In this document: one piece after another, positions 7,735-58,500 of the stretch | How the letters are laid out: each line of letters begins with the position of its first letter | How positions within the stretch are numbered: position 1 is the stretch's first letter | From: Diplonema papillatum | Taxonomy: Eukaryota; Euglenozoa; Diplonemea; Diplonemida; Diplonemidae | Length of the DNA: 64,000 nt | NCBI GenBank assembly: GCA_030068145.1 | Contig: JAPJBO010000349.1 | Location: 124,001 to 188,000 of the forward strand | Direction: 5' to 3' | The notes under the pieces: model-generated | Told to the model about the DNA's origin: nothing | Database searches by the model: none | What the model saw: only the letters and a program-made list of their open reading frames with translations | Program-made: the position numbers and the translations under genes

Positions 7735-7889
7735 GAGACCCGAAAGATGGTGAACTATGCCTGGATAGGATGAAGCCGGGGGAAACCCTGGTGGAGGTCT
7801 GATGCGGTGTTGACGTGCAAATCGCTCGTCAAAGCTGGGTATAGGGGGCGAAAGATCTAGTAGCTGGTTCGCTCTGAAGTTTCCCTCAA
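7735..7889 (+). rRNA. Fragment of 28S (LSU) rRNA gene, degenerate
   Basis: The stretch follows the universally conserved eukaryotic LSU segment: GACCCGAAAGATGGTGAAC, then TATGCCTG(G)ATAGG(A)TGAAG, then GGAAACCCTGGTGGAGG, then GACGTGCAAATCGCTCGTC, then GGGTATAGGGGGCGAAAGA, then TAGTAGCTGGTTC and GAAGTTTCCCTCA. Compared with yeast 25S, about 13 bases before CTAGTAGCTGG are missing and several conserved positions differ. Flanks are not rDNA. It is a dispersed rRNA pseudogene or captured fragment, not a working rRNA gene. Confidence 0.85.
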
Positions 7890-9213: not shown

Positions 9214-10263
9214 TTAGATGTGCGAAAGCATGGCGGGGTTGATTTCGAGGACGCGCGAAGGCACGAGGCCGCTGCCGTTGATGCGGATGCAGTCCTCATA
9301 GAGCTCTACGATGGCGTGCGCTGTGGCGCGGTCCTGGTCGGTGCTGAGCGGGGACGGCATCGTGATGTGGTGCGTGCCCTTGCCCGACACGGCGTGGCCC
9401 CCACAGTGGTCGTGCCCTGCGAAGACCGCCACCACGTTGCCCTCTTCCAGCACCGACAGCACCTGGCCGTAGTTCCAGGCGAGCGTCGCGGGCTGCGTGC
9501 TCCCCGGCAGCAGCGGCACGTGGCACAGCACCACCGCCTTCTCCCCCCTCTCCACCGTCTCCCGCATCACGCCCGCGAGCCACCGCAACTGCCCCTCCCC
9601 GATCCCGCCGTTGAACGGCACGTAGTGCGCCTTCCCGTGAGCAAGGCCCGCCCCCCAGTTGACCGTCCCGCGCTTCGCGCGGACATCATTCGCGTTGTGC
9701 CGCTCGAGCCACCGAAACGCCCCCTCCGCGCACGCCGGCTCCTCCTTGTCGACGATGCAGTGGATGTCGTAGCTGTTCAATATCACGACGCGCCACCCGG
9801 GTACTGGAGTGAAGGAATGATACGCTTCGCCCGTGTCGCCGAGGATGCCCGGCACCAGGCGGGTCACCTCGTCCTGCGTGAAGTTGTAGAGCTCGTGATT
9901 CCCGAAGAGGTGCCACACAGGGCACACCTCGGCGACCTTACCGAACTCCGAGAGCACTGCCCGCAAGGCCTCCCTCGACTGGCCCAGCGCCTCGTTTTGC
10001 TGGTCGATCAGGTCCCCCAGGCTGGCCACGAAGCTCACGGGGGGTGTCTCCGGGTCTGTCCACGAATCGACCGCGTGTCTGAGGGCGCGGAGGGCCGAGC
10101 GGTAGCGCCGGATGCCGGTTTTCCCGAAATTGTAGGCGTCGCCCAGGTCGGCGTACTGCACGTCGGAGATCAGCCCGAAGCGGGCGAGCGCCGGCTCGTC
10201 GCCGCGGTCGGGGGCGGCGGCGGGACGGGGGGCACTCTTGACGCAGCGGCTCGCAAGCCGCAT
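9214..10263 (-). CDS. ADPRM: Mn2+-dependent ADP-ribose/CDP-alcohol diphosphatase (ADPRM-like)
   Basis: A complete 349-residue calcineurin-like metallophosphoesterase. The family hydrolyses ADP-ribose, CDP-choline and related nucleotide diphosphates in the cytosol. Metal-binding motifs appear in order: DVQY (residues 34-37), GDLID (83-87), GNHE (121-124), CHVP (247-250, His248) and GHDH (283-286). The stretch GKAHYVPFNGGIGEGQLRWL before the fourth motif is characteristic of ADPRM rather than other phosphoesterases. The length matches the family. The ATG at 10263 is used because homology starts shortly after (ARFGLISDVQY). It appears intronless. Fragments of the same gene sit at 9082-9142 and 20035-20105, so the gene has shed partial copies. 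A GC-rich 5' leader with CT runs lies at 10264-10560. Confidence 0.93.
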   Translation of the reverse strand: MRLASRCVKSAPRPAAAPDRGDEPALARFGLISDVQYADLGDAYNFGKTGIRRYRSALRALRHAVDSWTDPETPPVSFVASLGDLIDQQNEALGQSREALRAVLSEFGKVAEVCPVWHLFGNHELYNFTQDEVTRLVPGILGDTGEAYHSFTPVPGWRVVILNSYDIHCIVDKEEPACAEGAFRWLERHNANDVRAKRGTVNWGAGLAHGKAHYVPFNGGIGEGQLRWLAGVMRETVERGEKAVVLCHVPLLPGSTQPATLAWNYGQVLSVLEEGNVVAVFAGHDHCGGHAVSGKGTHHITMPSPLSTDQDRATAHAIVELYEDCIRINGSGLVPSRVLEINPAMLSHI

Positions 10264-11025
10264 CGGCCTTCTTTTTGGGGGTTAGAACCTTTCCGGCGAA
10301 GAGAGAGGGGGGGGTGACCCCGCGTCGCCCCAGTTCTTCCTGGACAGGGGTTTCGATTATTGCGCCTGGGATGGGGAGTCGTTGTTGTTGGTGCTGGTTT
10401 TGTGGGATGAAGTAGGGGAAAGAAAATTTCTTTTTGCGGTGGTCTCCGCTGGCCTGGTAGTCCGTGCTACCTCCTTTCTTTAACACTCGTTCTCTTCTCT
10501 ACTCACTACTGTACGTACTCTTTCGCTCTTTTTCTCTCTTTGGCTAGCCAAAACAAAAGACTTCTGCGACCGACACCACGAACACATTCGCAATGAATGT
10601 GGCCCTGGGCCCCCCACGTGCATACATGTTGAGCAGGGGTTGCCATGTAGCCCGTATCGGTCTAAGTCAACACTGTTACTTTCATGGGATGTTCACCGGG
10701 GAAGGGTCCGACCTAACCGTTAGTCAACAGCAACGTCGAAAAGGGGGAGGGGGAAAGAAGATAGAAAATCGGTGGGGTTGACAAGCTCGTAAGTGGTTGT
10801 TTGTAGATCAGTACAACCTTAAACTACGCCTAGCACACGGCCAGGCGGTCTTTAACGAACCTCCAGTACATTAAACGCAAGTCGGCAGGTCGTCATCAGA
10901 CGCGGCACGAAAAGCAAACGTCGCCGACGCAGCACTTCAGCAATGCGTCCTCTTATTTACAGTGGGCACCGTACCTGAACTCAGCCCCGCTAGGCCGAGA
11001 TTCCGGCTGTTCCGCAGGGCATACA
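10264..11025. other. Intergenic region between ADPRM and the retroelement
   Basis: Contains the presumed 5' leader/promoter of ADPRM (CT-rich around 10490-10545) and the 3' flank of the retroelement. No gene or clear element end was recognised. Confidence 0.45.
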
Positions 11026-14000
11026 TCACTCCCCGAAGTTGACGTACGTGCAGAGACGTTCGTGCACATGCAGGCCTCTGAGGCCCCGGAACAATCGACC
11101 GTCCTTGGTGCGGTCGGTGAAGCAGCGCTTGCAGCGCAGTTCCGGGGGGTCCTTGGGCTGTTCAGGTGGCTGGTCGTGTGCTGCCAAAGCGGCGTCGGAG
11201 GGCATGGGTTGGCAAGATTCCAGATTCGCGTCGGTACAGGGCGGACTAGAAGGTATCAGCGGGACCTGCGGTGGGACTGTTGTTGCCATCATAGTAGGTG
11301 ATGGCAAGCGTTCGACCACCTCGTGGGACGCATTGGGGATTCGTACGTATGCGGCGAGGTATATGTCAGTCCAAGGAACGTTGTCGACGTGCAAGACTCG
11401 TTCGTCATCGAAAAGCGTCCATTGCATCCCTTGCAAGACGTATGTGACAAAATGGCCGCTTGTCGTATTTTGTCCCGTGTGTACAACCACCGCGGAAAGG
11501 CGTAGTGTGCCGTCCGGCAGTCGCAGGAGGAGCGGTAGGGAAGCGTCATTCCGTAGTCTCGCACCATCGCTTGCGTAAATGCCGAACTGCAACAGCAGGC
11601 ACTCGGACGCCACATGCACGTTCATGGTCTCCACAACGGATCCAGCAGCTCCGCAGTCACACCTCCTCTCCGGATTCATAATTCCACGAACACAGAATGC
11701 GTCCTCCACCGGCCTTCCACGAGGGACTTGAAGACACCGTACCAGTTGATGACGGGTGGATGTGGCGCCACAGGTGATACATCGTGTTGTTGTCGTCATC
11801 GTGTTCTCCAGGCACGTCTGGAAAAGCCGCCAATCCGGACAAGCCTCCGTCGTCTCGTCCGGCCCTAGGGAGCTGTCTGTCCTATCCAGAATTGCAACCA
11901 AAGCCTCGTGCGCGTCGTGCTGTCGCGCATCGCAGAACATTGGGAGCATGGCGAGGATTGTTTCAGCCCCTATCCTTCGGCTGTCTTGGCTGAGCTGGCT
12001 CCTCCCCGAGCGCGAGCTTACCAGTAGGACGAAGTACGTCAAGAACTCCTTCAGGAACCCCCGGAAATTCAGAGGATTCTGCGCAAGACTGTAATACATG
12101 TTCTCGATCGGTTCCACACGCAACAAGAGCTGCAGTACCGCATTGAGAAAACAAGTATTCCCAAGGTTCGGGAGGCCGGCAGGTTCAAACGGTGACGGGT
12201 CGAACATGCGGGAGGGCCGTTGGATACAAATGACAGCTTGGCGGCCGACAGCGGGTGATGATTCCAGCATGTCAGGCACTGCATGGGACACGTCGCAGCG
12301 CCGTTTCGGTCCAGGCTGAGCAGCCTCATCGTCTCTGCGCTTGCGCTTTCCTTTAGTCGTCCCATCCTGGGGCACAAGATCACGACGCTGCTTCGGAGCC
12401 GCAGTGGAAGGCCGATCGGGCGTATCTCGTTCCGTTCGTGTGCCAGGTCGAGGACGGTCCCTGTATCTCACGAAGGCCTTCTCAGCGAGCAGCCTCTCGA
12501 CCGCTTGGTCGATGGACTCCAAGTCGGGCATCTGCAGAATGCGTTCCACTTCATGTACGAGCCACACGAAGTGCGCACGGATCTTCTCGCAGTGATCACC
12601 GAACTTCGCTTCTGGGTACGTGTCTAGTAACCATTTACGAAACCCACTTTTTAAGACACTCTTGCGGTACCCCCGTCTCATGAGCTTCAGCACCGTGTTG
12701 TTCATCTCGGTCTTAAAGTCATGGAGGTTGTTCGCAATCCTGCCGTTACGCACAAGCGCTCCGATGAGGATACTCGACCCAAAGTTCGATGGAGCCGTGG
12801 AGAGCACGGATGTGTACGCCAAGGGCTGGTATCGGTATGCCTTCGCTTTGTCGAGGACTGACAGGCGCATGTATCTCCTCCCGGACATCTCGGAGACTTC
12901 ATGTCGAATCCGAATACCAAGGAAAGTGGCGTCCCCAACCTTGGCGTTTGTCTGTTTGTACCTCATGTTGTACACAGATTCCGGTGGGGGTTTTGTGCCG
13001 AAACACAACAGATCGTCAATGAAGCGGCGTGTCAGGCTAAGCAATGCCGCACGTTGCGTGTCCCCGTCTTCCAAGAGTCGCATCATGTATTTTCGCTCTT
13101 TCGCATAGCAAAAGAGGTTGGCGATGTCCGGGGAAGCGTTCGCACCCATTGGGATGCCTAGCGTCTGCCTCATGAGAACCCTATTGACCAGAACATAGGT
13201 ATTCACCAGGCAGAAAGACAAGAGGGTCTTGAGCTCCTGCGCCGAATACGCTGCTTCATGTGACCGTACCTCCGTGTTTACCTTAAAGGCGAAACAGCGC
13301 TTCTTACGAGTCGGCCCGTGTTGGCTCTTCGGACGTACTAATACGAGTCTTCCCGCGTCCACGTTCAAACGTGCAGCCTCCGCCGCGAAGGCCTCATTAA
13401 TCGTGTCCGCAACCGCATTAAGAAGCTCCTCAAGCTCCAGCTGGTCATACATCGTTGTAAAGTCAAATGTACCAGCGTCCAGCTGCGCGAGTTCGTCCGC
13501 GTGTGTCTTCAGGAAGAAGGCCGTGTCGTCGCTCGACTCCGTGATCCAGAAGTACCGGTACCCAGTCGCGTTGAACCGAATGTCGTCTTCCCGCCGGAGG
13601 ATGCTCATGATCGCCTTCAGCAAGCCGGTCAGGTCCAGTTGCGCGTCCGTCGTAGACGAGAACGTGGTCTTAGGGCGGGCGTCCCGTCCAGCATCGGCCG
13701 CCTCGGAGTCGGAGTCGACACAGTTCTTCCGCGAAACCCCAGCGATGTACCGCATGGACGTCACTTCCTTGTGCAGCTTCAGGGTGCCATATAGGTATGG
13801 GAGGACGTTCGATGAGTGTAATCCTTCCCGTCCGAGGTAGGCCTTGTGCCTCGCAATGACTTGTTGAGGCGTCTCTTCGCTCGGGGAGTAGTTCGTACTG
13901 TGATTGACCTTCGCGTGTAAGTCCTGGTTGTAAAATCTTTTACACACGAAGCCGAAATCATGCGAGCTCTTGTCCACGGGCAGGATCACGAGATGTTCCT

Positions 14001-14826
14001 GCAACTCCAACAGTTTTTTACGCGCTCCAGCCGTCAGCTCCGGATCGGCTCCCACCCGGGAGAGGTCAACCGTGGCTAGTATCTTCCTCCGTAGCATCCT
14101 TGCGAAGTGCGGAGGGGCGTCCTTGAATTGCTCCTCAACGAACTGGGTCACAGCTTTGTCGACCTCCCTGCAAACGGCTTCTTCCCCACCGTCCGGTCGG
14201 AACTTGCGACCCTTGTCAAAAAGCGAAATTAGCTCGCTCGACGTTTTGAGGAGGTGTGCCTGCCCGCACGCATGCCCTTGGATGTGGTATCCGTCTAGAA
14301 GGTAGCGTTGGCAAGGGCATTCACCAGGGGGAGGGGCCGGGGCAGCAGTTGTTTGTCGCGAAACATCCGTAAAGTTTGACAGAAGGACCCCGAGGGGAGG
14401 ATTAAGCGACGTGGAAACCCTCGTGTTCACGAAGTCCGTTGAGTCCGCGAGCATTTCACGGAGTTCGGTATCGTGACGGAAAACGGCGGCTAGCTTCCTT
14501 TCATCCATCATCTTGCTCACCTGCCGTATGCAGAACCAAGGCGTTCGTGCTGCACTCTTTTTCTTCTTCGCAAGATGGTTGATCTCACTAAGCCTCGCCG
14601 TGAGCAGCTCGTCCAGGATTGCTACCTTCGGGTGCTGCAGGTGCTCAACCATGAACATTCGCACCCAGGTACGAACTCTGTAGACGCGGCTCTTCATCCA
14701 CGGGTTCACGTCGTATGCCCGTAGGGTGTCCTCATCGAGTCCGAACATGTAATGCAGCTGCTTCCGGATGCCGAAGTATCGGCCTCGACTTTGGTCCACG
14801 TGGATCTGCCCATCCTTCACATGCAC
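11026..14826 (-). CDS. Penelope-like reverse transcriptase fused to a ubiquitin-specific protease
   Basis: About 1266 residues. CPC at 170-172 is the CxC motif. The RT follows with LYGTLKLHK (345-353), motif A FDFTTMY (454-460, Asp455), motif B QTLGIPMGANASPDIANLF (554-572), motif C FIDD (602-605) and FLGIRI (635-640). A basic linker (KGKRKRRDD, 826-834) is followed by a USP/C19 domain. That domain has the Cys box GLPNLGNTCFLN (Cys892), QHDAHEAL (969-976), zinc-ribbon pairs CITCG and CDCG, the His box SGHFVTYV (His1125), the acidic third position FDDERV (1139-1144) and the terminal YLAAYVR. The end has CKRC and HVHERLC, a C2HC-like finger. All USP catalytic positions are present. The frame has no ATG at its 5' edge (GTG at 14826) and joins the GIY-YIG frame by a -1 shift, so it is probably translated or ancestrally joined with it. 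I know of no described Penelope element carrying a USP. Confidence 0.88.
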   Translation of the reverse strand: MHVKDGQIHVDQSRGRYFGIRKQLHYMFGLDEDTLRAYDVNPWMKSRVYRVRTWVRMFMVEHLQHPKVAILDELLTARLSEINHLAKKKKSAARTPWFCIRQVSKMMDERKLAAVFRHDTELREMLADSTDFVNTRVSTSLNPPLGVLLSNFTDVSRQTTAAPAPPPGECPCQRYLLDGYHIQGHACGQAHLLKTSSELISLFDKGRKFRPDGGEEAVCREVDKAVTQFVEEQFKDAPPHFARMLRRKILATVDLSRVGADPELTAGARKKLLELQEHLVILPVDKSSHDFGFVCKRFYNQDLHAKVNHSTNYSPSEETPQQVIARHKAYLGREGLHSSNVLPYLYGTLKLHKEVTSMRYIAGVSRKNCVDSDSEAADAGRDARPKTTFSSTTDAQLDLTGLLKAIMSILRREDDIRFNATGYRYFWITESSDDTAFFLKTHADELAQLDAGTFDFTTMYDQLELEELLNAVADTINEAFAAEAARLNVDAGRLVLVRPKSQHGPTRKKRCFAFKVNTEVRSHEAAYSAQELKTLLSFCLVNTYVLVNRVLMRQTLGIPMGANASPDIANLFCYAKERKYMMRLLEDGDTQRAALLSLTRRFIDDLLCFGTKPPPESVYNMRYKQTNAKVGDATFLGIRIRHEVSEMSGRRYMRLSVLDKAKAYRYQPLAYTSVLSTAPSNFGSSILIGALVRNGRIANNLHDFKTEMNNTVLKLMRRGYRKSVLKSGFRKWLLDTYPEAKFGDHCEKIRAHFVWLVHEVERILQMPDLESIDQAVERLLAEKAFVRYRDRPRPGTRTERDTPDRPSTAAPKQRRDLVPQDGTTKGKRKRRDDEAAQPGPKRRCDVSHAVPDMLESSPAVGRQAVICIQRPSRMFDPSPFEPAGLPNLGNTCFLNAVLQLLLRVEPIENMYYSLAQNPLNFRGFLKEFLTYFVLLVSSRSGRSQLSQDSRRIGAETILAMLPMFCDARQHDAHEALVAILDRTDSSLGPDETTEACPDWRLFQTCLENTMTTTTRCITCGATSTRHQLVRCLQVPRGRPVEDAFCVRGIMNPERRCDCGAAGSVVETMNVHVASECLLLQFGIYASDGARLRNDASLPLLLRLPDGTLRLSAVVVHTGQNTTSGHFVTYVLQGMQWTLFDDERVLHVDNVPWTDIYLAAYVRIPNASHEVVERLPSPTMMATTVPPQVPLIPSSPPCTDANLESCQPMPSDAALAAHDQPPEQPKDPPELRCKRCFTDRTKDGRLFRGLRGLHVHERLCTYVNFGE

Positions 14827-15524
14827 CCAGGCGTCTCCGCGCTCTCGAGCTCGGCAACTTTGTCGAAGTTACCCCCAGCCGCATAGAACGCTTCTGGGAC
14901 GTCGTAGAGGATGAACGCGTAAGGCGGCGAGGGGAGGTTCTGCAAGTGTCGCTTGAACCTGTCCTGCTTGGTGTTCCGGCCAGACCAATGCTTTGTAACC
15001 CGCTCCTGCATCGTCTTGCTCGTCTTGCCGATGTACAGCAGGTTGGCGTGGGCATCAACTAGTCCGTAGATGAGACCCGTAGCGCGGTAGTTGCTCGCGT
15101 CTGTCGGGCGCTGGAGTCTCATCGTCGCGTACGTGTGGTCTAGGAGCCTGCGATACCTCTTCTGGAACCGGGCCGTAAACAGCTCGCCCTGCTCTTTCCA
15201 CTTCGGCCAATCTATCTGTGTCGTCTTCTCCGTTTTGCCACGTACACAGTCAGTTTGGAAGAATGGTGCGAGAAAGGGCTTGTACGGCGAGGATGGTAGG
15301 TGCGAACTCCGGGCGTCGACGCATGTCCGCGTCAGCTGGTGGCAAACGTACCATGTTGACCGCGAAGCTCTTGCGAGGATTGTGGGGCCGGGTCCGTATC
15401 GTAAAGGGTGGTGCTCTGTACAGGGATCGGGGTTGCCGGGGGTAGTAGAATGCGTCGGCTGAGGCGTTGACGGAACGTAACGGAACTGATTTGAATTGCT
15501 TGAGGGAGGCTGTGCACTGTACAA
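14817..15524 (-). CDS. GIY-YIG endonuclease domain of the Penelope-like element
   Basis: 235 residues from the ATG at 15524. The GIY-YIG core is at residues 150-180: GLIYGLV (150-156), LLYIGKT (162-168), and the catalytic arginine in QERVTKHW (Arg175). Acidic residues in VAELESAE (223-230) are candidates for the catalytic Glu. The first 100 residues are Pro/Ser/Thr-rich and may not belong to the protein. The frame ends in TGA at 14817-14819, overlapping the RT frame, which is open for about 50 bases before this stop and lies in the -1 frame. In related elements nuclease and RT form one ORF, so either a frameshift mutation or programmed frameshifting separates them. The nuclease would nick target DNA for target-primed reverse transcription. 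Confidence 0.85.
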   Translation of the reverse strand: MYSAQPPSSNSNQFRYVPSTPQPTHSTTPGNPDPCTEHHPLRYGPGPTILARASRSTWYVCHQLTRTCVDARSSHLPSSPYKPFLAPFFQTDCVRGKTEKTTQIDWPKWKEQGELFTARFQKRYRRLLDHTYATMRLQRPTDASNYRATGLIYGLVDAHANLLYIGKTSKTMQERVTKHWSGRNTKQDRFKRHLQNLPSPPYAFILYDVPEAFYAAGGNFDKVAELESAETPGCM

Positions 15525-16578
15525 AGGGGTGGTAGCGGGATTGGGTGGTGAGCGGGTTGCTGTTCTGGATTATTGGCGGTACTCTTCACGCGACGTACAC
15601 GGTGTTGTTGTTAGGGGTGTCGGTTTGTTGCTAAGCTCAAGTCTTAGCGCGCTTTGTTCGGAGGGTGCGTTTTGTGGTCTTGGTTGGGGGTTTTCCCGGT
15701 TTGTAGTAGCGAGGCCGCACGGGGGCAGGATGGCACCAAGCCTAGACTCTGCCCGGTCTCGTTGCCGATGTCTTGTGGTACAGCGGGGCGAAGTTAATAC
15801 GATTTAACCGTCTCCCTACCTGTACCGGCTGCGTTTCTTCGTCGGTTGTGCCATGGGCAGTTGGTTTTCGACCTCTGTACACTGTGTCAGAGGCCTCAGA
15901 TCGTGGGCGGGTTGTTTTTGCGAGAGGTCCCCCCGCGGCGTTTGAGGGGACTGGGTGGGTACGGCCGCCAATCCACCTAGACTCCGCCCCCTCATTCCGT
16001 CCTAGCATGAAGCATTGACCACGGACATCTCGGGATAGGAGTCACCTTTCATTCTTGAGCGAAACCACACTCAAAAGGTACTCGCCATCATCCAGAACTG
16101 CTGCTTTGCGTCTATTGTCTTCGTCGGCATTTACATCTAAAACTATGTACAAGGGAGTGCGGAGGTTGTTACCAGTCAGCGTTCTCGCACGTCGCGCGAG
16201 CGACCAGGCGGGGCGGTCTTGCAGTCAGCCTGGGATGGGGAGGGGGGAATTTTTCTTAGCCAGTTCATCGAACCACGAAGCATCACGGTCATCAGGTACG
16301 GTCCATCCCCTGGAGCTGCATGAAACTGCCATCCATCGGTCTATCGGTTTAGCTTAGTGTTTTGACGGAAGGAACAGGGTTTCGTTTTTTTTTTTTGCAA
16401 ATTGGGCAGCATACTAGCTCTGACCTCGACCCCCGAGCCCAGAACTGGTAAACTGGTCTGTATCCAATTTTTGTGCACAGGAGGGCAGACACCCCTGTTC
16501 GGCAACGAATGCCTGCAGAGCGAAGTCGTACCGGATAGCGGTGGATGGTGGACGAAGAACGAAGAAACCATACGCCTG
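15525..16578. other. 5' flank of the retroelement, no supported gene
   Basis: GC-rich DNA with short frames only. The phrase CCTAGACTC(T/C)GCCC occurs near 15741 and 15976. No pseudo-LTR was found. An oligo-T run lies at 16385-16397. Confidence 0.4.
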
Positions 16579-16582
16579 CTAC

Positions 16583-17826
16583 GGGAAACAAAGGGACGAG
16601 TGGGCCTACAACAGCGTCAGTGGTAAACAAAGGGACGAGTGGGCCTACAACAGCGTCAGTGGTAAACAAAGGGACGAGTGGGCCTACAACAGCGTCAGTG
16701 GTAAACAAAGGGACGAGTGGGCCTACAACAGCGTCAGTGGTAAACAAAGGGACGAGTGGGCCTACAACAGCGTCAGTGGTAAACAAAGGGACGAGTGGGC
16801 CTACAACAGCGTCAGTGGTAAACAAAGGGACGAGTGGGCCTACAACAGCGTCAGTGGTAAACAAAGGGACGAGTGGGCCTACAACAGCGTCAGTGGTAAA
16901 CAAAGGGACGAGTGGGCCTACAACAGCGTCAGTGGTAAACAAAGGGACGAGTGGGCCTACAACAGCGTCAGTGGTAAACAAAGGGACGAGTGGGCCTACA
17001 ACAGCGTCAGTGGGAAACAAAGGGACGAGTGGGCCTACAACAGCGTCAGTGGGAAACAAAGGGACGAGTGGGCCTACAACAGCGTCAGTGGTAAACAAAG
17101 GGACGAGTGGGCCTACAACAGCGTCAGTGGTAAACAAAGGGACGAGTGGGCCTACAACAGCGTCAGTGGTAAACAAAGGGACGAGTGGGCCTACAACAGC
17201 GTCAGTGGGAAACAAAGGGACGAGTGGGCCTACAACAGCGTCAGTGGTAAACAAAGGGACGAGTGGGCCTACAACAGCGTCAGTGGGAAACAAAGGGACG
17301 AGTGGGCCTACAACAGCGTCAGTGGGAAACAAAGGGACGAGTGGGCCTACAACAGCGTCAGTGGGAAACAAAGGGACGAGTGGGCCTACAACAGCGTCAG
17401 TGGGAAACAAAGGGACGAGTGGGCCTACAACAGCGTCAGTGGTAAACAAAGGGACGAGTGGGCCTACAACAGCGTCAGTGGTAAACAAAGGGACGAGTGG
17501 GCCTACAACAGCGTCAGTGGGAAACAAAGGGACGAGTGGGCCTACAACAGCGTCAGTGGGAAACAAAGGGACGAGTGGGCCTACAACAGCGTCAGTGGGA
17601 AACAAAGGGACGAGTGGGCCTACAACAGCGTCAGTGGGAAACAAAGGGACGAGTGGGCCTACAACAGCGTCAGTGGGAAACAAAGGGACGAGTGGGCCTA
17701 CAACAGCGTCAGTGGGAAACAAAGGGACGAGTGGGCCTACAACAGCGTCAGTGGGAAACAAAGGGACGAGTGGGCCTACAACAGCGTCAGTGGGAAACAA
17801 AGGGACGAGTGGGCCTACAACAGCGT
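16583..17826. repeat. 39-bp minisatellite, about 32 copies
   Basis: The unit AAACAAAGGGACGAGTGGGC + CTACAACAGCGTCAGTGGK repeats head to tail with almost no variation except one T/G site just before AAAC. From left to right the site reads G, T x10, G G, T T T, G, T, G G G G, T T, then G to the end. The unit is 13 codons long, so frames stay open on both strands: plus [13 protein letters not shown], plus [14 protein letters not shown], minus (F/P)[11 protein letters not shown]. None shows codon-level selection, and the real coding status is unknown. The array stops exactly where the hAT remnant begins. Confidence 0.95.
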
Positions 17827-18390
17827 CAATGAAGGGCCGATTGCAGCAGCCTTGGGTTAGTCATCATATTTTTGCGCATGACCCCCACTTTGTCGACGCA
17901 CGCTTCATACTCCGGCCACGTGGCGAAGTTCAGCGTTCTTGGGCTCGCAATCCACGCATTGAGGTACGCCTCCATAGCGCTCCTCGGGATGCCGCTGCCA
18001 CGTTCATACGGGCCATTGAGCCCGAGCATTAGCACGTCGGTCAGCGTCTGCTCGTGAAGCCTCTTCCTGGCTTTTGTCAACACCCTTTTCATGTTTGAAA
18101 AGACACGCTCGACCGATGCTGTCCCCATTGGCAGGACAACAGCAATGGCAAACAGATTGTTTGTCTCTGGAAATGCCGTCGAAAGGTTCGATGACACCTT
18201 CCGTCGGCAGCACCACCTCCCGCACAGGCACATTAGCTGAGCGAAAAAACGAGCCCAGTTTCTGTAGACCGCGAATGTCATGCACTTTCTTTGGCCCCAT
18301 TTTCCACTTTCTCCCAATCCTGTTCTGGTAGCGGTTGCATTGTGTAGCAGCGCAAACATGTTGGTCGATGTGCTTCTCCACATTGGTGCC
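17827..18390 (-). pseudogene. hAT-family transposase remnant (C-terminal dimerisation domain)
   Basis: From 18390 the frame gives ...RIGRKWKMGPKKVHDIRG... and VIEPFDG. After a frame change near 18180 it continues as LFAIAVVLPMGTASVERVFS, NMKRVLTKARKRL and [12 protein letters not shown]. The P-x-G-x-A-S-V-E-R-x-F-S block and the following basic helix are the signature of the hAT C-terminal dimerisation region. The N-terminal BED finger and DDE core are missing, and the 3' end is cut off at the minisatellite boundary. It is a dead 5'-truncated copy, or a fragment of a domesticated gene. Confidence 0.8.
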
Positions 18391-18505
18391 ACACGGTGGC
18401 ACCAATGTGGTACCCCGTGGTACCACTGTGGTACCCCGTGGTGCACGGTAGTAGTACACTGTGGTACCCTGTACACACTGTAGTACACAGTGTGTAGTAC
18501 ACTGC
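18366..18505. repeat. GTGGTACC-rich repeat
   Basis: Runs of GTGGTACCCCGTGGTACCAC and TAGTACACTGTGGTACC alternate with GTGTACTAC-type blocks. Many are mutually inverted, so the segment can form several short hairpins. Confidence 0.75.
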
Positions 18506-19245
18506 GGGTAGCCGGTTCCTCCGGGAAAATAATAATAGCTGATATATATATATTTTTTTTTTTTGACCCAGACCAGGTTCCAGACCAACTCTGGTCTGGC
18601 GACCAGCTGACCCCCCCCAAGCTAGTAGGCTGAAATTGGGCAGGGGTTTATATGGAAAGCTGGGTCCCTCTGTATTCCTCCACATGCCTGTGGGGGGTGG
18701 TTAACTTTTACCAAGAAAGTGTTTTCTGAGTGTGGTTGCGGAGCACCCAAGGACCCCCCAGTGTAGCATAGCGCAGCCCAGCACAGCCGAATTGTGTCTC
18801 GTTCGTGTCTCGATCATAGAGGAAAAGGTGTGTCAAGTGTACGGCAGGGAACTTCAAGTTAAAACAACGTAAGCTGTACTACAGGCCTACAATACAATAC
18901 TAGCCTCAAAAGGGGCACTGGATGTGCAACAACCAGGGTTCTTCTTGTAAGGACAGCTGCTGCTGTATCAAGTATAACGAAGCTCTTGCAAACTTGAGCT
19001 GCGTAGGGCGCACATTTGCATAGCCACAACCAAGTACTCCCTCAAAAGAGTCAACGAAGTCCGCTGTGACTGGCTCATTCCACTGAAAGTGGACGCCAAG
19101 AACAAACAAGCTGGCTCCCCGAGCCCGGCCCCCTTCAGTGGCTGGTCCCCCAGTGCTGGCCACTCACGGCAGCCCCCCGACAGTTTTCTTTTTTTTTTTT
19201 TGGAGCGTGGGGGTTACCCCCACGTAAGACCCCCCTTATAAATCA
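18506..19245. other. Low-complexity and unrecognised DNA
   Basis: Contains TATATATAT plus T-run (18540-18565), CTGGTCTGG/CCAGACCA inverted phrases at 18570-18600 and a T-run at 19187-19201. An 85-codon minus frame (19163-18906) has no recognised motif. Confidence 0.4.
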
Positions 19246-53604: not shown

Positions 53605-54924
53605 TCACTCGAAGTTGATGGAGCTCACGTTGGCACTGTTGGCCGCAAAAAGCTTCTTACCCGTTTTGCCTAGCCCGGGGAGGTTCGTGTCGGGGTTGGG
53701 CAGCACTTCGAAGATGCTGGAGTAGCGAGGGGGGAGGGAGGTGGTGTTGTTAGGGAGCACGACGCGGTGGGGTGTCTCATGCACCACGCCTTTCGACAGG
53801 CTCTGCAAGAACGACCCGAATAGCACAGAAAAGCAGTTGTGTTGCCCGTGCGACGTTTCCCGCGACTCGAGGCACACCCACTGCGATGCGTGCCAGTCGT
53901 ACGCCTGCATGCCCTGTCCGGTCGACCCCCGAGACGATAGGGTCACAATACCAACGTCTTTGTGCTCTTCCGCGGGGACTGCAGCCTCCCCTGTCTCTGA
54001 GAAGTCGAAGTGATGATACTTGAACATCTCAAAGAATGAGGTGGCCTGCTCCGACCCTTGCCTTGGTGCCTTGTCTTGGTCTAGAATGCGTGTAACGTCC
54101 GCAGCCGCCATCCCCATGCCGAGAAGCACGGCACGTGCAACAACGAGTGCGGGCTCACACATGGCCATGTACACATCCATTACCTCCTTGCACGAGACCC
54201 TCTCAGGCTTCTCCCACCGCTGCAACGCGTTCTTGCACATCGCCACCCTCCGCACCTTCAACATCTCCTTCCGCTTCCAGTCCAGTTCCTTCCACCCCCA
54301 CACTCGCAGCCCGTCTGCCATCTGAACCTCTCTCTTCGCAGCCGCGTCTAACCGGAAAAACTTCTCCGCAAGCTGATGCCTCTTTTCCTCCAACGCCGCA
54401 AAGGTCATGTGGTCCGCCTCCACAAAAAAGTGCCCCCGAGATGTCACGTCGCGGTAGAACGCCTTGAGGGCACCGTTGTTGCTGCTGTTTACCCACAGCT
54501 GCAGAAGCGACAGGGGGTAGGTCGGCGCCGTTGAGGTGGCGACGTGGGTAGCCGACGCTGGTAGTCGTAGGACCTTCTTCGTTGGCGCCGCTGTGGGTTC
54601 CACACGCCGCTTTTTCGCCGGCTCCTCGTCAGAATTTTCAGGTTCATCTTCCTCCTCCTCCTCTTCCTCTTCGGGCACCACAGGCCCTTGATGCCCTTGT
54701 CCCCTCAGTCGAAGAACCAAATGCAAAATGCACGCGTGCCCGACTTTGCCTTGCTGAAGCGTCGTTCCGTCATCCAGTTGCTTGCCTGCATAAATTATTT
54801 TCTGCTGGTCGGGGGGTATCCCTTCCTTGTCCTGAACCTTCGACTTGAAGGTTTCGATTGTGTCGTCCGGTGAACACTCGATGGCGAGGGTCTTCCCGGT
54901 CATCGACTTCACGATAACTTGCAT
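53605..54924 (-). CDS. Ubiquitin-like domain fused to 2-oxoglutarate/Fe(II) dioxygenase, copy 1
   Basis: 439 residues from the ATG at 54924. Residues 1-75 are a ubiquitin fold ([39 protein letters not shown]) ending LRLRGQG rather than ubiquitin's LRLRGG. An acidic run ([12 protein letters not shown]) and NLS-like PAKKRRV follow. Residues 150-400 fit an isopenicillin-N-synthase-type dioxygenase: the N-region [12 protein letters not shown]...[14 protein letters not shown], iron ligands EHKDVG (His321, Asp323) and TPHRVV (His386), and the 2-oxoglutarate site PPRYSS (Arg400, Ser402). All metal and cosubstrate residues are present, so activity is plausible; the substrate is unknown. The ATG was chosen because the Ub fold starts there. 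It looks intronless. A tandem paralogue lies 2.3 kb away in the same direction. Confidence 0.85.
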
Positions 54925-55124
54925 GCTGGTTGTTTCTGTCCTTTTGAATGAGCCCCTACTCTGAACGAAATACATGTACATGGGTGTAGGATAGCCTGTG
55001 CGAGTCTAGAGGAAACGTGTTGCACAGGCGTTCGTGCAACCCGAGCCTTTTGGCCCCGTTGAACTTTGATGCTAAGTTCGGCATGCAATAGCAAGTTCGG
55101 GGGGAGGGATGGCCCCCTCCGGAC
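54925..55124. other. 5' flank of dioxygenase copy 1
   Basis: GAATGAGCCCCTACTCTGA just upstream of the gene is also found upstream of copy 2 (58515-58535), so the duplication includes the presumed promoter edge. Confidence 0.6.
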
Positions 55125-57198: not shown

Positions 57199-58500
57199 TC
57201 ACTCGAAGTTGATGGAGCTCACGTTGACACTGTTGGCTGCGAACAGCTTCTTACCCGTGGTGACGAGCCCGGGAAGGTTCGTGTCGGGGTTGGGCAGCAC
57301 TTCGAAGATGCTGGAGTAGCGAGGGGAGAGGGAGGTGGTGTTGTTGGGGAGCACGACGCGGTGGGGTGTCGCATGCACCACGCCTTTCGACAGGCTCTGC
57401 AAGAACGACCCGAACAGCACAGAAAAGCAGTTGTGTTGCCCGTGCAACATTACTCGCGACTCGAGGCACACCCACTGCGATTCGTGCCAGTCGTACGCCT
57501 GCAGGCCCTGTCCGGTCGAACCCCGAGACGATACGGTCACAATACCAACGTCTTTGTGCTCTTCCGCGGGGACTGCAGCCTCCCCTGTCTCTGAGAAGTC
57601 AAAGTGATGATACTTGAACATCTCAAAGAAGGAGGTGGCCTGCTCCGACCCTTGCCTTGGTGCCTTGTCTTGGTCTAGGATGCGTGTAACGTCCGCATCC
57701 GCCATCCCCATGCCGAGAAGCACGGCACGTGCAACAACGAGTGCGGGCTCGCACATGGCATTGTACACATCCATTACCTCCTTGCACGAGACCCTCGTCG
57801 GCTTCTCCCACCGCTGCAACGCGTTATTGCACATCGCCACCCTCCGCACCTTCAACATCTCCTTCCGCTTCCAGTCCAGTTCCTTCCACCCCCACACTCG
57901 CAGCCCGTCTGCCATCTGCACCTCTCTCTTAACAGCTGCGTCTAACCGGAAAAACTTTTTCGCGAGCCGATGCCTCTTCCCCTCCAACGCCGCAAAGGCC
58001 ACGTGGTCCGCCTCCACAAAAAAGTGCCCGCGAGAGGTCACGTCGCGGTAGAACGCCTTGAGGGCACGGCTGTTGCTGCTGTTTACCCACAGCTGCAGAA
58101 GCGACAGGGGGTAGGTCGGCGCCGTTGAGGTGGCGACGCGGGTAGCCGACGCTGGTAGTCGCATGACCTTCTTTGGCGCTGCTGTCGGTGCCACACGCTG
58201 CTTCTTCGCCGGCTGCTCGCCATCATCGTCAGTTGCTTCCTCCTCTTTGGGCACCACAGGCCCTTCATGCCCTTGCCCCATCATTTCATACACCGCAACC
58301 AAAATGCTCCCTTCCCCGATGCTGCTTTGCCGAAGCGTCGTTCCGTCCTCCAGCTGTTTACCTGCGTAAATCAGTCTCTGCTTGTCCGGGGTCACCCCTT
58401 GCTTGTCCTGAATCCTCGACTTGACGGTTTCTATTGTGGCATCCGGTGAACACTCGATGGTGAAGACATCCTCGTCCAGCGTCTTCACGATAACTAGCAT
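57199..58500 (-). CDS. Ubiquitin-like domain fused to 2-oxoglutarate/Fe(II) dioxygenase, copy 2
   Basis: 433 residues from the ATG at 58500. The dioxygenase half is nearly identical to copy 1, with the same ligands (EHKDVG, TPHRVV, PRYSS). The ubiquitin-like half is much more diverged (MLVIVKTLDEDVFTIECSPD, QDKQGVTPDKQRLIYAGKQL) and ends VYEMMGQG, so the di-arginine tail of ubiquitin is lost. The linker keeps an acidic run and PAKKQRV. Faster change in the Ub half than in the catalytic half suggests the Ub module is under weaker or different selection. Both copies are uninterrupted, so both may be functional. Confidence 0.85.
   Translation of the reverse strand: MLVIVKTLDEDVFTIECSPDATIETVKSRIQDKQGVTPDKQRLIYAGKQLEDGTTLRQSSIGEGSILVAVYEMMGQGHEGPVVPKEEEATDDDGEQPAKKQRVAPTAAPKKVMRLPASATRVATSTAPTYPLSLLQLWVNSSNSRALKAFYRDVTSRGHFFVEADHVAFAALEGKRHRLAKKFFRLDAAVKREVQMADGLRVWGWKELDWKRKEMLKVRRVAMCNNALQRWEKPTRVSCKEVMDVYNAMCEPALVVARAVLLGMGMADADVTRILDQDKAPRQGSEQATSFFEMFKYHHFDFSETGEAAVPAEEHKDVGIVTVSSRGSTGQGLQAYDWHESQWVCLESRVMLHGQHNCFSVLFGSFLQSLSKGVVHATPHRVVLPNNTTSLSPRYSSIFEVLPNPDTNLPGLVTTGKKLFAANSVNVSSINFE

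Follow-up and report, generated by a model that had tools for sequence, protein, structure and literature searches.

Why would a retroelement carry a complete ubiquitin-specific protease (USP) behind its reverse transcriptase (RT)? The question is raised by a Penelope-like element (PLE) of the marine flagellate Diplonema papillatum (genome 271 Mb), found within a 64,000-nucleotide stretch of contig JAPJBO010000349.1 (assembly GCA_030068145.1, positions 124,001 to 188,000), hereafter the window. An initial reading of the sequence alone had placed a PLE at 11026..15524, with a GIY-YIG core, a CPC motif, Penelope RT motifs and a USP in one 1266-residue frame. The element proved genuine but larger, spanning 10379-16227 between two copies of a 15-nt target-site duplication (Table 1). 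As judged from sequence comparison and structure models, it is a recently mobile PLE of the kind with an N-terminal GIY-YIG endonuclease and a CxC motif, whose single protein very probably ends in a selected, functional USP deubiquitinase.

The CPC motif, which we take to be the CxC motif of N-terminal-endonuclease PLEs, and the Penelope RT motifs lie together with the USP in a 1266-aa open reading frame (ORF) without a stop, as first read. The GIY-YIG domain is equally real, with Pfam matches (PF01541) in the window frame and in the predicted proteins P0001 and P0005, but in the window copy it occupies an overlapping frame of its own and is not continuous with the RT-USP protein. Relative to other copies, 149 nt are missing here at an 8-nt microhomology and about 20 nt are added near the N-terminus, and these two changes put the endonuclease out of the RT frame. 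The zinc-finger-like CxxC...H...C motif at the C-terminus is a pattern match that recurs in P0005 and P0012 and five times in P0009; it has no Pfam match, and a stricter pattern found none.

The USP was first described as complete, and this is borne out. Pfam UCH (PF00443) matches residues 884-1149 of the 1266-aa frame (E 2.4e-23), and the PDB chains of USP36, USP12 and USP46 match this part by sequence. A structure model of the domain (pLDDT 82.5, pTM 0.82) matches USP12, USP46, Ubp8, USP1, USP36 and others with probability 1.00 and a TM score of about 0.7. Across an alignment of 12 rows, Cys892, His1125, Asp1141 and two zinc ligands, Cys1016 and Cys1019, do not vary, and Cys1056 hardly does. 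The domain thus displays what characterises family C19, namely the USP fold, the Cys/His/Asp triad and the zinc Cys pairs.

The ratio of nonsynonymous to synonymous rates (dN/dS) was estimated by the Nei-Gojobori method from one copy each of three element families, A (window), B (L037) and C (L038). Between B and C, dN/dS of the USP is 0.213 (bootstrap 0.15-0.30, dS 0.60), compared to 0.061 for the RT, 0.27 for the linker between the two and 0.29 for the tail; purifying selection therefore preserves the USP from one element family to another, though more loosely than the RT. Pairs containing A, with a saturated dS of about 2, point in the same direction (USP dN/dS 0.135 and 0.165), and nonsynonymous/synonymous counts within family A (30 loci; RT 1/6, USP 1/2, rest 8/6) are too few to tell. 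The linker is fast-changing, yet its two basic clusters are kept in A, B and C and may act as an NLS-like nuclear import signal.

Copies, mobility and classification

A genome search with the 1266-aa ORF (best 37 of 1321 candidates scored; such counts are lower bounds) returned 40 rows, which we read as 37 separate family A copies of 99-100% identity. Matches cover residues 1-1266 in 20 of the 37 and start later in 16, which are 5'-truncated or interrupted; on contig C214 the match is split in two, with a TAG. All 37 match as far as residue 1266, and therefore contain the USP. Other copies keep all domains in a single frame. Of the 20 full-span copies, 13 have a frame of 1562 aa; in the three checked (L002, L004, L017) this frame starts as P0001 does, and is 1485 aa long from the first Met. 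In P0001, Pfam and motif matches place GIY-YIG at 88 and CPC at 389, followed by RT and USP. A search with P0005 (best 31 of 1336 candidates scored) yielded 18 full-length, near-identical copies of family B and 6 full-length copies of family C at 86%. The sequence-only reading had held that a USP was recruited C-terminal to the RT, a view that copies lacking the USP would undermine. The opposite was found: the same junction recurs in at least 37 family A, 18 full B and 6 full C copies, so that at the DNA level 37/37 family A copies and 24 full B or C copies hold both domains.

Target-site duplications were sought at 30 loci. Six of these had no 3' probe and were set aside, and at another ten the locus edge was too close, leaving 14 to be assessed. 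Three of the 14 are flanked by a duplication of mixed sequence, which measures 15 nt in L001, the window copy, and 12 nt, with Cs at its start, in L027; in L022 it reaches at least 30 nt, the most that the test could show. Six more (L012, L014, L018, L019, L021, L026) show a duplication extending little beyond a C-run, and five (L009, L010, L016, L024, L029) show none; at an edge locus, L013, a duplication of about 30 nt is visible by eye. Of the 24 copies printed from the 30 loci tried, 22 have by our count at least six Cs at their 3' junction. The 3' flanks of the printed family A copies differ, except for one common to L017 and L026, and the 5' ends of family A copies fall at differing places. 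The 5' untranslated region (UTR) extends 2.07 kb upstream of 16227 in L031, L032, L034 and L035, and 1.85 kb in L033. Upstream of the 5'UTR, five of six such extended copies carry part of the element's 3' end in head-to-tail order (interrupted in L034); the sixth, L036, has none. Penelope-like elements show this arrangement as the pLTR. Multiple near-identical copies, target-site duplications and 5' truncations indicate that the element is recently mobile.

Two family A copies that match from residue 345 lie about 62 kb apart on one contig (C97:318341-322324 and 380453-384436). Just upstream of each is a second, diverged USP (54% to the MBL-USP described below), which accounts for the last two of the 40 rows, and a 1459-aa open frame is listed for both; either one element has inserted into another here, or the element carries two USPs.

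A model of the RT (residues 165-800, 30 alignment rows) reached a pLDDT of 88.3. The first 15 Foldseek matches in the PDB are all telomerase, followed by DRT2, viral polymerases and group II intron RTs; sequence identity of 9-14% and TM scores of 0.35-0.46 place the kinship with telomerase at the level of fold only. Telomerase-like RT, N-terminal GIY-YIG and CPC together place the element among N-terminal-endonuclease PLEs. It also shows general features of Penelope-like elements: a telomerase-related RT, GIY-YIG, pLTR-like tandems, 5' truncation and variable target-site duplications. Craig et al. (2021) reportedly described the Naiad and Chlamys clades with their diagnostic marks, and the two features of this type, an N-terminal GIY-YIG and a CxC ahead of the RT, are found in P0001. 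Naiad elements are defined by a CCHH motif in the endonuclease, which is absent here, the first 200 residues holding one Cys in P0001 and two in P0005. A Cys-cluster pattern matched P0016, P0031 and P0088 and did not match P0017, P0018 and P0110; in P0017 and P0018 the cluster was seen by eye. Chlamys is marked by phylogenetic grouping with elements of green plants and slime moulds; the Diplonema element is filed only as an N-terminal-endonuclease PLE. Canonical PLEs carry a hammerhead ribozyme; here none was found at the gathering score of Rfam in L031, L035, L036 or the window, and N-terminal-endonuclease PLEs are not known to have one. Two viral contig sets (A4, A2) were also scanned, and gave 77 and 45 pattern matches with no confirmed relative.

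Related fusions and origin of the USP

A protein search with RT residues 1-500, in which 8000 candidates were scored, found 12 proteins. Among these, P0009 is 38% identical to the RT part of the window protein and carries five CxxC...H...C motifs between its RT and a divergent USP; in P0007, P0008 and P0010 the gene model includes other domains. The USP domain as query found three proteins, the best of which, P0013, joins a PLE-type RT to a C-terminal USP; no RT was seen in the other two, P0014 and P0015. P0013 in turn gave 367 matches, of which 120 were listed, and seven of these join RT and USP. The Naiad-like RT-USP proteins are P0013, P0016, P0017, P0018, P0020, P0021 and P0024, with an N-terminal GIY-YIG in P0016-P0018. 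An RT tree was built from 49 rows: 10 USP-bearing proteins, P0006, P0010, P0012 and a selection of 36 among 113 other relatives. In it, the seven Naiad-like RTs that bear a USP form one group with the fragment P0121, which has no USP, and this group is nested among relatives lacking one. The other deep clade holds the Diplonema elements and P0009, with P0012 and P0010, which show no USP; P0006 is labelled USP-less in this tree because its gene model skips the USP.

In the D. papillatum genome, PF00443 was found at 149 places (best 149 of 935 candidates scored), which we divided by eye, from score class and span, into about 112 that resemble the element USPs and about 37 that are host-like or partial. 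Trees of RT and USP had been proposed as a check by the sequence-only reading. In the USP tree, the USP at C9:546040-546840, labelled host in advance, is sister to the three element USPs; it belongs to a 702-aa frame with an N-terminal metallo-beta-lactamase (MBL) domain and no RT. This MBL-USP gene is about 60% identical in its USP to the family A element. When it was used as query, only its own place matched beyond the USP end (best 63 scored). A gene found once as nearest non-element relative fits recruitment from the host, with the direction not proven, and the gene may be donor or recipient of the element USP.

USP trees of 17, 28 and 25 rows, with long branches, were compared in several tests. 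A single clade of all PLE USPs gave p-AU 0.018 in a tree without Diplonema host rows, and a single clade of Diplonema and Naiad-like USPs, the MBL-USP gene being allowed inside, also gave p-AU 0.018 in a comparison from which P0009 and two long host rows had been removed. Values of 0.0008 and 0.0002 are smaller but prove less, because they arise partly from forcing the MBL-USP gene out. Grouping P0009 with the Diplonema USPs gave p-AU 0.089, and 0.011 with the MBL-USP gene forced out. As judged from these trees, at least two captures of a USP by PLEs are favoured, and are not proven because sampling is small, branches are long and several tests were run.

Competing explanations and a possible role

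Some gene models do join host sequences (P0007, P0008, P0010), as would be expected if the USP were no part of the element but a host gene that a fortuitous insertion or a misassembly had placed next to a PLE. Against this, the RT-USP junction is common to all three families, on many contigs, and differing flanks and target-site duplications oppose the duplication of one locus as the source of all copies. The 37 family A copies rule out a chance fusion, to which we give practically no weight. A multi-copy host USP family was likewise ruled out, the USP travelling with RT, endonuclease and UTRs. Could the USP instead be a passenger, captured once and copied along without function? Its evolution is faster than that of the RT and gene models without it exist, but dN/dS between B and C is 0.213 with an upper bootstrap bound of 0.30, and catalytic residues are kept in Naiad-like USPs that are just 40-47% identical, which makes this account very improbable. 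We attach as little credence to a processing protease that cuts the element's own polyprotein: other retroelements have such enzymes, but USPs need a ubiquitin-like domain in the substrate, and Pfam finds none in the window frame, P0001 or P0005.

Several observations nevertheless weigh against a mobile element with a functional USP. The window copy, with its broken endonuclease frame, is probably immobile on its own. The Pfam USP match ends at profile position 240 of 254, and the USP changes faster than the RT, with 59% identity between families A and B compared to 76% in the RT. Gene models P0002, P0006 and P0008 go from the RT to the zinc-finger-like tail, skipping the USP, so that a USP-less product is possible; the skipping may be genuine splicing or an artefact of annotation. 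Family C DNA does contain, in frame, the 1053 nt that P0006 lacks, and L016, possibly on the contig of P0002, gives a full RT-USP match. P0012, which matches 83% of the query at 35% identity and is placed by the RT tree as sister to P0009, shows no USP, and USPs are the exception among the P0013 matches listed (7/120).

With regard to origin, a single ancient capture behind all PLE USPs, followed by many losses, would account for the position of the USP C-terminal to the RT in all cases seen, for P0009 and P0001 sharing one RT clade, and for the RT-USP protein P0013 as best non-Diplonema match of the USP. It is opposed by both one-clade tests, by the nesting of the seven Naiad-like RTs and P0121 inside USP-less ones, and by a gene without RT as nearest relative of the Diplonema USP, and on these counter-points, which rest on small sampling and long branches, we regard it as unlikely. 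The MBL-USP gene might also have taken its USP from an element, and so not be the donor: elements are numerous, some lie in or near genes, and the USP tree alone cannot orient the transfer. This is doubtful, as the gene branches outside A, B and C (element clade 99/97), has the shortest path from the node common with the element USPs (0.12), and fits the USP profile better (111.6 bits vs 74.6-83.5). On balance, we lean towards deubiquitination as a recurrent tool of PLEs, with independent USP captures in the Diplonema families, in the Naiad-like clade and perhaps a third behind P0009, each fused C-terminal to the RT and selected for counter-defence or integration functions, and with the Diplonema USP coming from a diplonemid MBL-USP gene.

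A selected USP together with similar fusions in distant elements makes it probable that such elements use deubiquitination to survive or move. It is tempting to speculate that the RT-USP protein would enter the nucleus via the basic linker, that the endonuclease would nick C-rich tracts, and that element RNA would be reverse-transcribed from the nick, target priming in PLEs being itself only a suggestion (PMC11167929). The tethered USP could then strip ubiquitin in cis, either from the RT or its ribonucleoprotein (RNP), allowing escape from the proteasome, or from target chromatin or repair proteins. Protection of the RT/RNP is a tentative choice of role, set slightly above an action on chromatin, which is conceivable too; other substrates take the rest.

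The surrounding window and known systems

Table 1. Coordinates of the family A element and its parts in the window, and of the gene with the nearest non-element USP.
Feature	Position	Strand	Basis or remark
5'-truncated Penelope-like element, family A; 3' end CAACAACAACGA, 5' end inside 5'UTR	10379..16227	-	homology to other copies stops at both limits
Target-site duplication, 3' copy (CTCCCCATCCCAGGC, 15 nt)	10364..10378	-	
Target-site duplication, 5' copy (CTCCCCATCCCAGGC, 15 nt)	16228..16242	-	
Frame with N-terminal GIY-YIG endonuclease, separated from RT frame in window copy	14817..15524	-	
GIY-YIG Pfam match (PF01541, E 1.2e-5)	14946-15074	-	
8-nt microhomology, site of 149 nt missing vs other copies	14842..14849	-	
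Open frame, 1266 aa: CPC-RT, linker, USP, zinc-finger-like tail	11029..14826; stop 11026-11028	-	
CPC motif	14311..14319	-	motif present
Telomerase-like reverse transcriptase, residues 170-781 (FDFTTMY, GIPMGANASPD, FIDD)	12484..14319	-	model and PDB folds
Fast-evolving RT-USP linker, two basic clusters (KGKRKRR...PKRRC)	12193..12483	-	common to families A, B, C
Complete ubiquitin-specific protease domain, residues 879-1166	11329..12192	-	
USP catalytic codons	Cys892 12151-12153; His1125 11452-11454; Asp1141 11404-11406	-	
C-terminal CxxC...H...C zinc-finger-like motif	11050..11133	-	pattern match
MBL-USP gene	C9:543200-547900 (L050:1602-3707)	+	nearest non-element USP relative

Elsewhere in the window, a calcineurin-like phosphoesterase frame (9214-10263, reverse strand) starts about 115 nt past the 3' end of the element, and a 39-nt tandem array of about 30 copies (16583-17857) lies beside a frame with a hAT dimerisation domain (17826-18620). 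Two genes on the reverse strand (53605-54981 and 57199-58500) each encode an N-terminal ubiquitin domain and a 2OG-Fe(II) oxygenase domain. A eukaryotic large-subunit rRNA fragment on the forward strand (7737-7867) fits the scattered 28S pieces reported for the D. papillatum genome (PMC10161547).

The same paper puts the repeat share of the assembly at 52% and itemises the types of retroelement; neither 'Penelope' nor 'ubiquitin' occurs in its main text (PMC10161547). The sequence-only reading knew of no described Penelope element with a USP, and none was found in the searched literature, outside of which lie preprints and most subscription papers; the RT-USP retroelement appears to be a variant of PLEs not previously described there. 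It would represent retroelement families with a ubiquitin-pathway enzyme inside the mobility protein and selected as such, and opens to experiment the questions of whether histone ubiquitin or ubiquitin-dependent turnover holds such retroelements in check, and of whether PLEs turn enzymes of the host against its control. Annotation calls for caution as well: Diplonema papillatum records give both P0001 and P0005 the name 'putative ubiquitin carboxyl-terminal hydrolase 16', and in this genome element-borne USPs outnumber host USPs by our reading of the 149 PF00443 places scored.

The described Naiad and Chlamys elements share with the Diplonema element the N-terminal GIY-YIG, the CxC, a telomerase-like RT, pLTR-like partial tandems and insertion at simple repeats, and Chlamys also an endonuclease without the CC..H..H motif. 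Unlike them, the Diplonema element adds a C-terminal linker, a complete USP and a zinc-finger-like tail, none of which, in such form, is to our knowledge found in described members of these clades. The Naiad-like RT-USP proteins also have an RT followed by a complete USP, preceded by an N-terminal GIY-YIG in P0016-P0018, but their RTs form a separate, deeply branching clade and their USPs fall in another group. Among other systems, Helentrons carry a transposon-borne cysteine protease with conserved active residues; it is of OTU type and fold, encoded by an additional ORF, and the carrier is a rolling-circle DNA transposon (PMC4067079). The giant Gypsy-like Burro elements have ubiquitination-linked domains (MATH/TRAF, BIR and RING-type motifs), but are long terminal repeat elements with no USP in the portion of the description seen (PMC6431247). 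The retrotransposons of dinoflagellates and charophytes that captured DNA methyltransferases differ in the enzyme concerned, and resemble the RT-USP elements in that host regulatory enzymes were captured independently by distant retroelements (PMC5890265).

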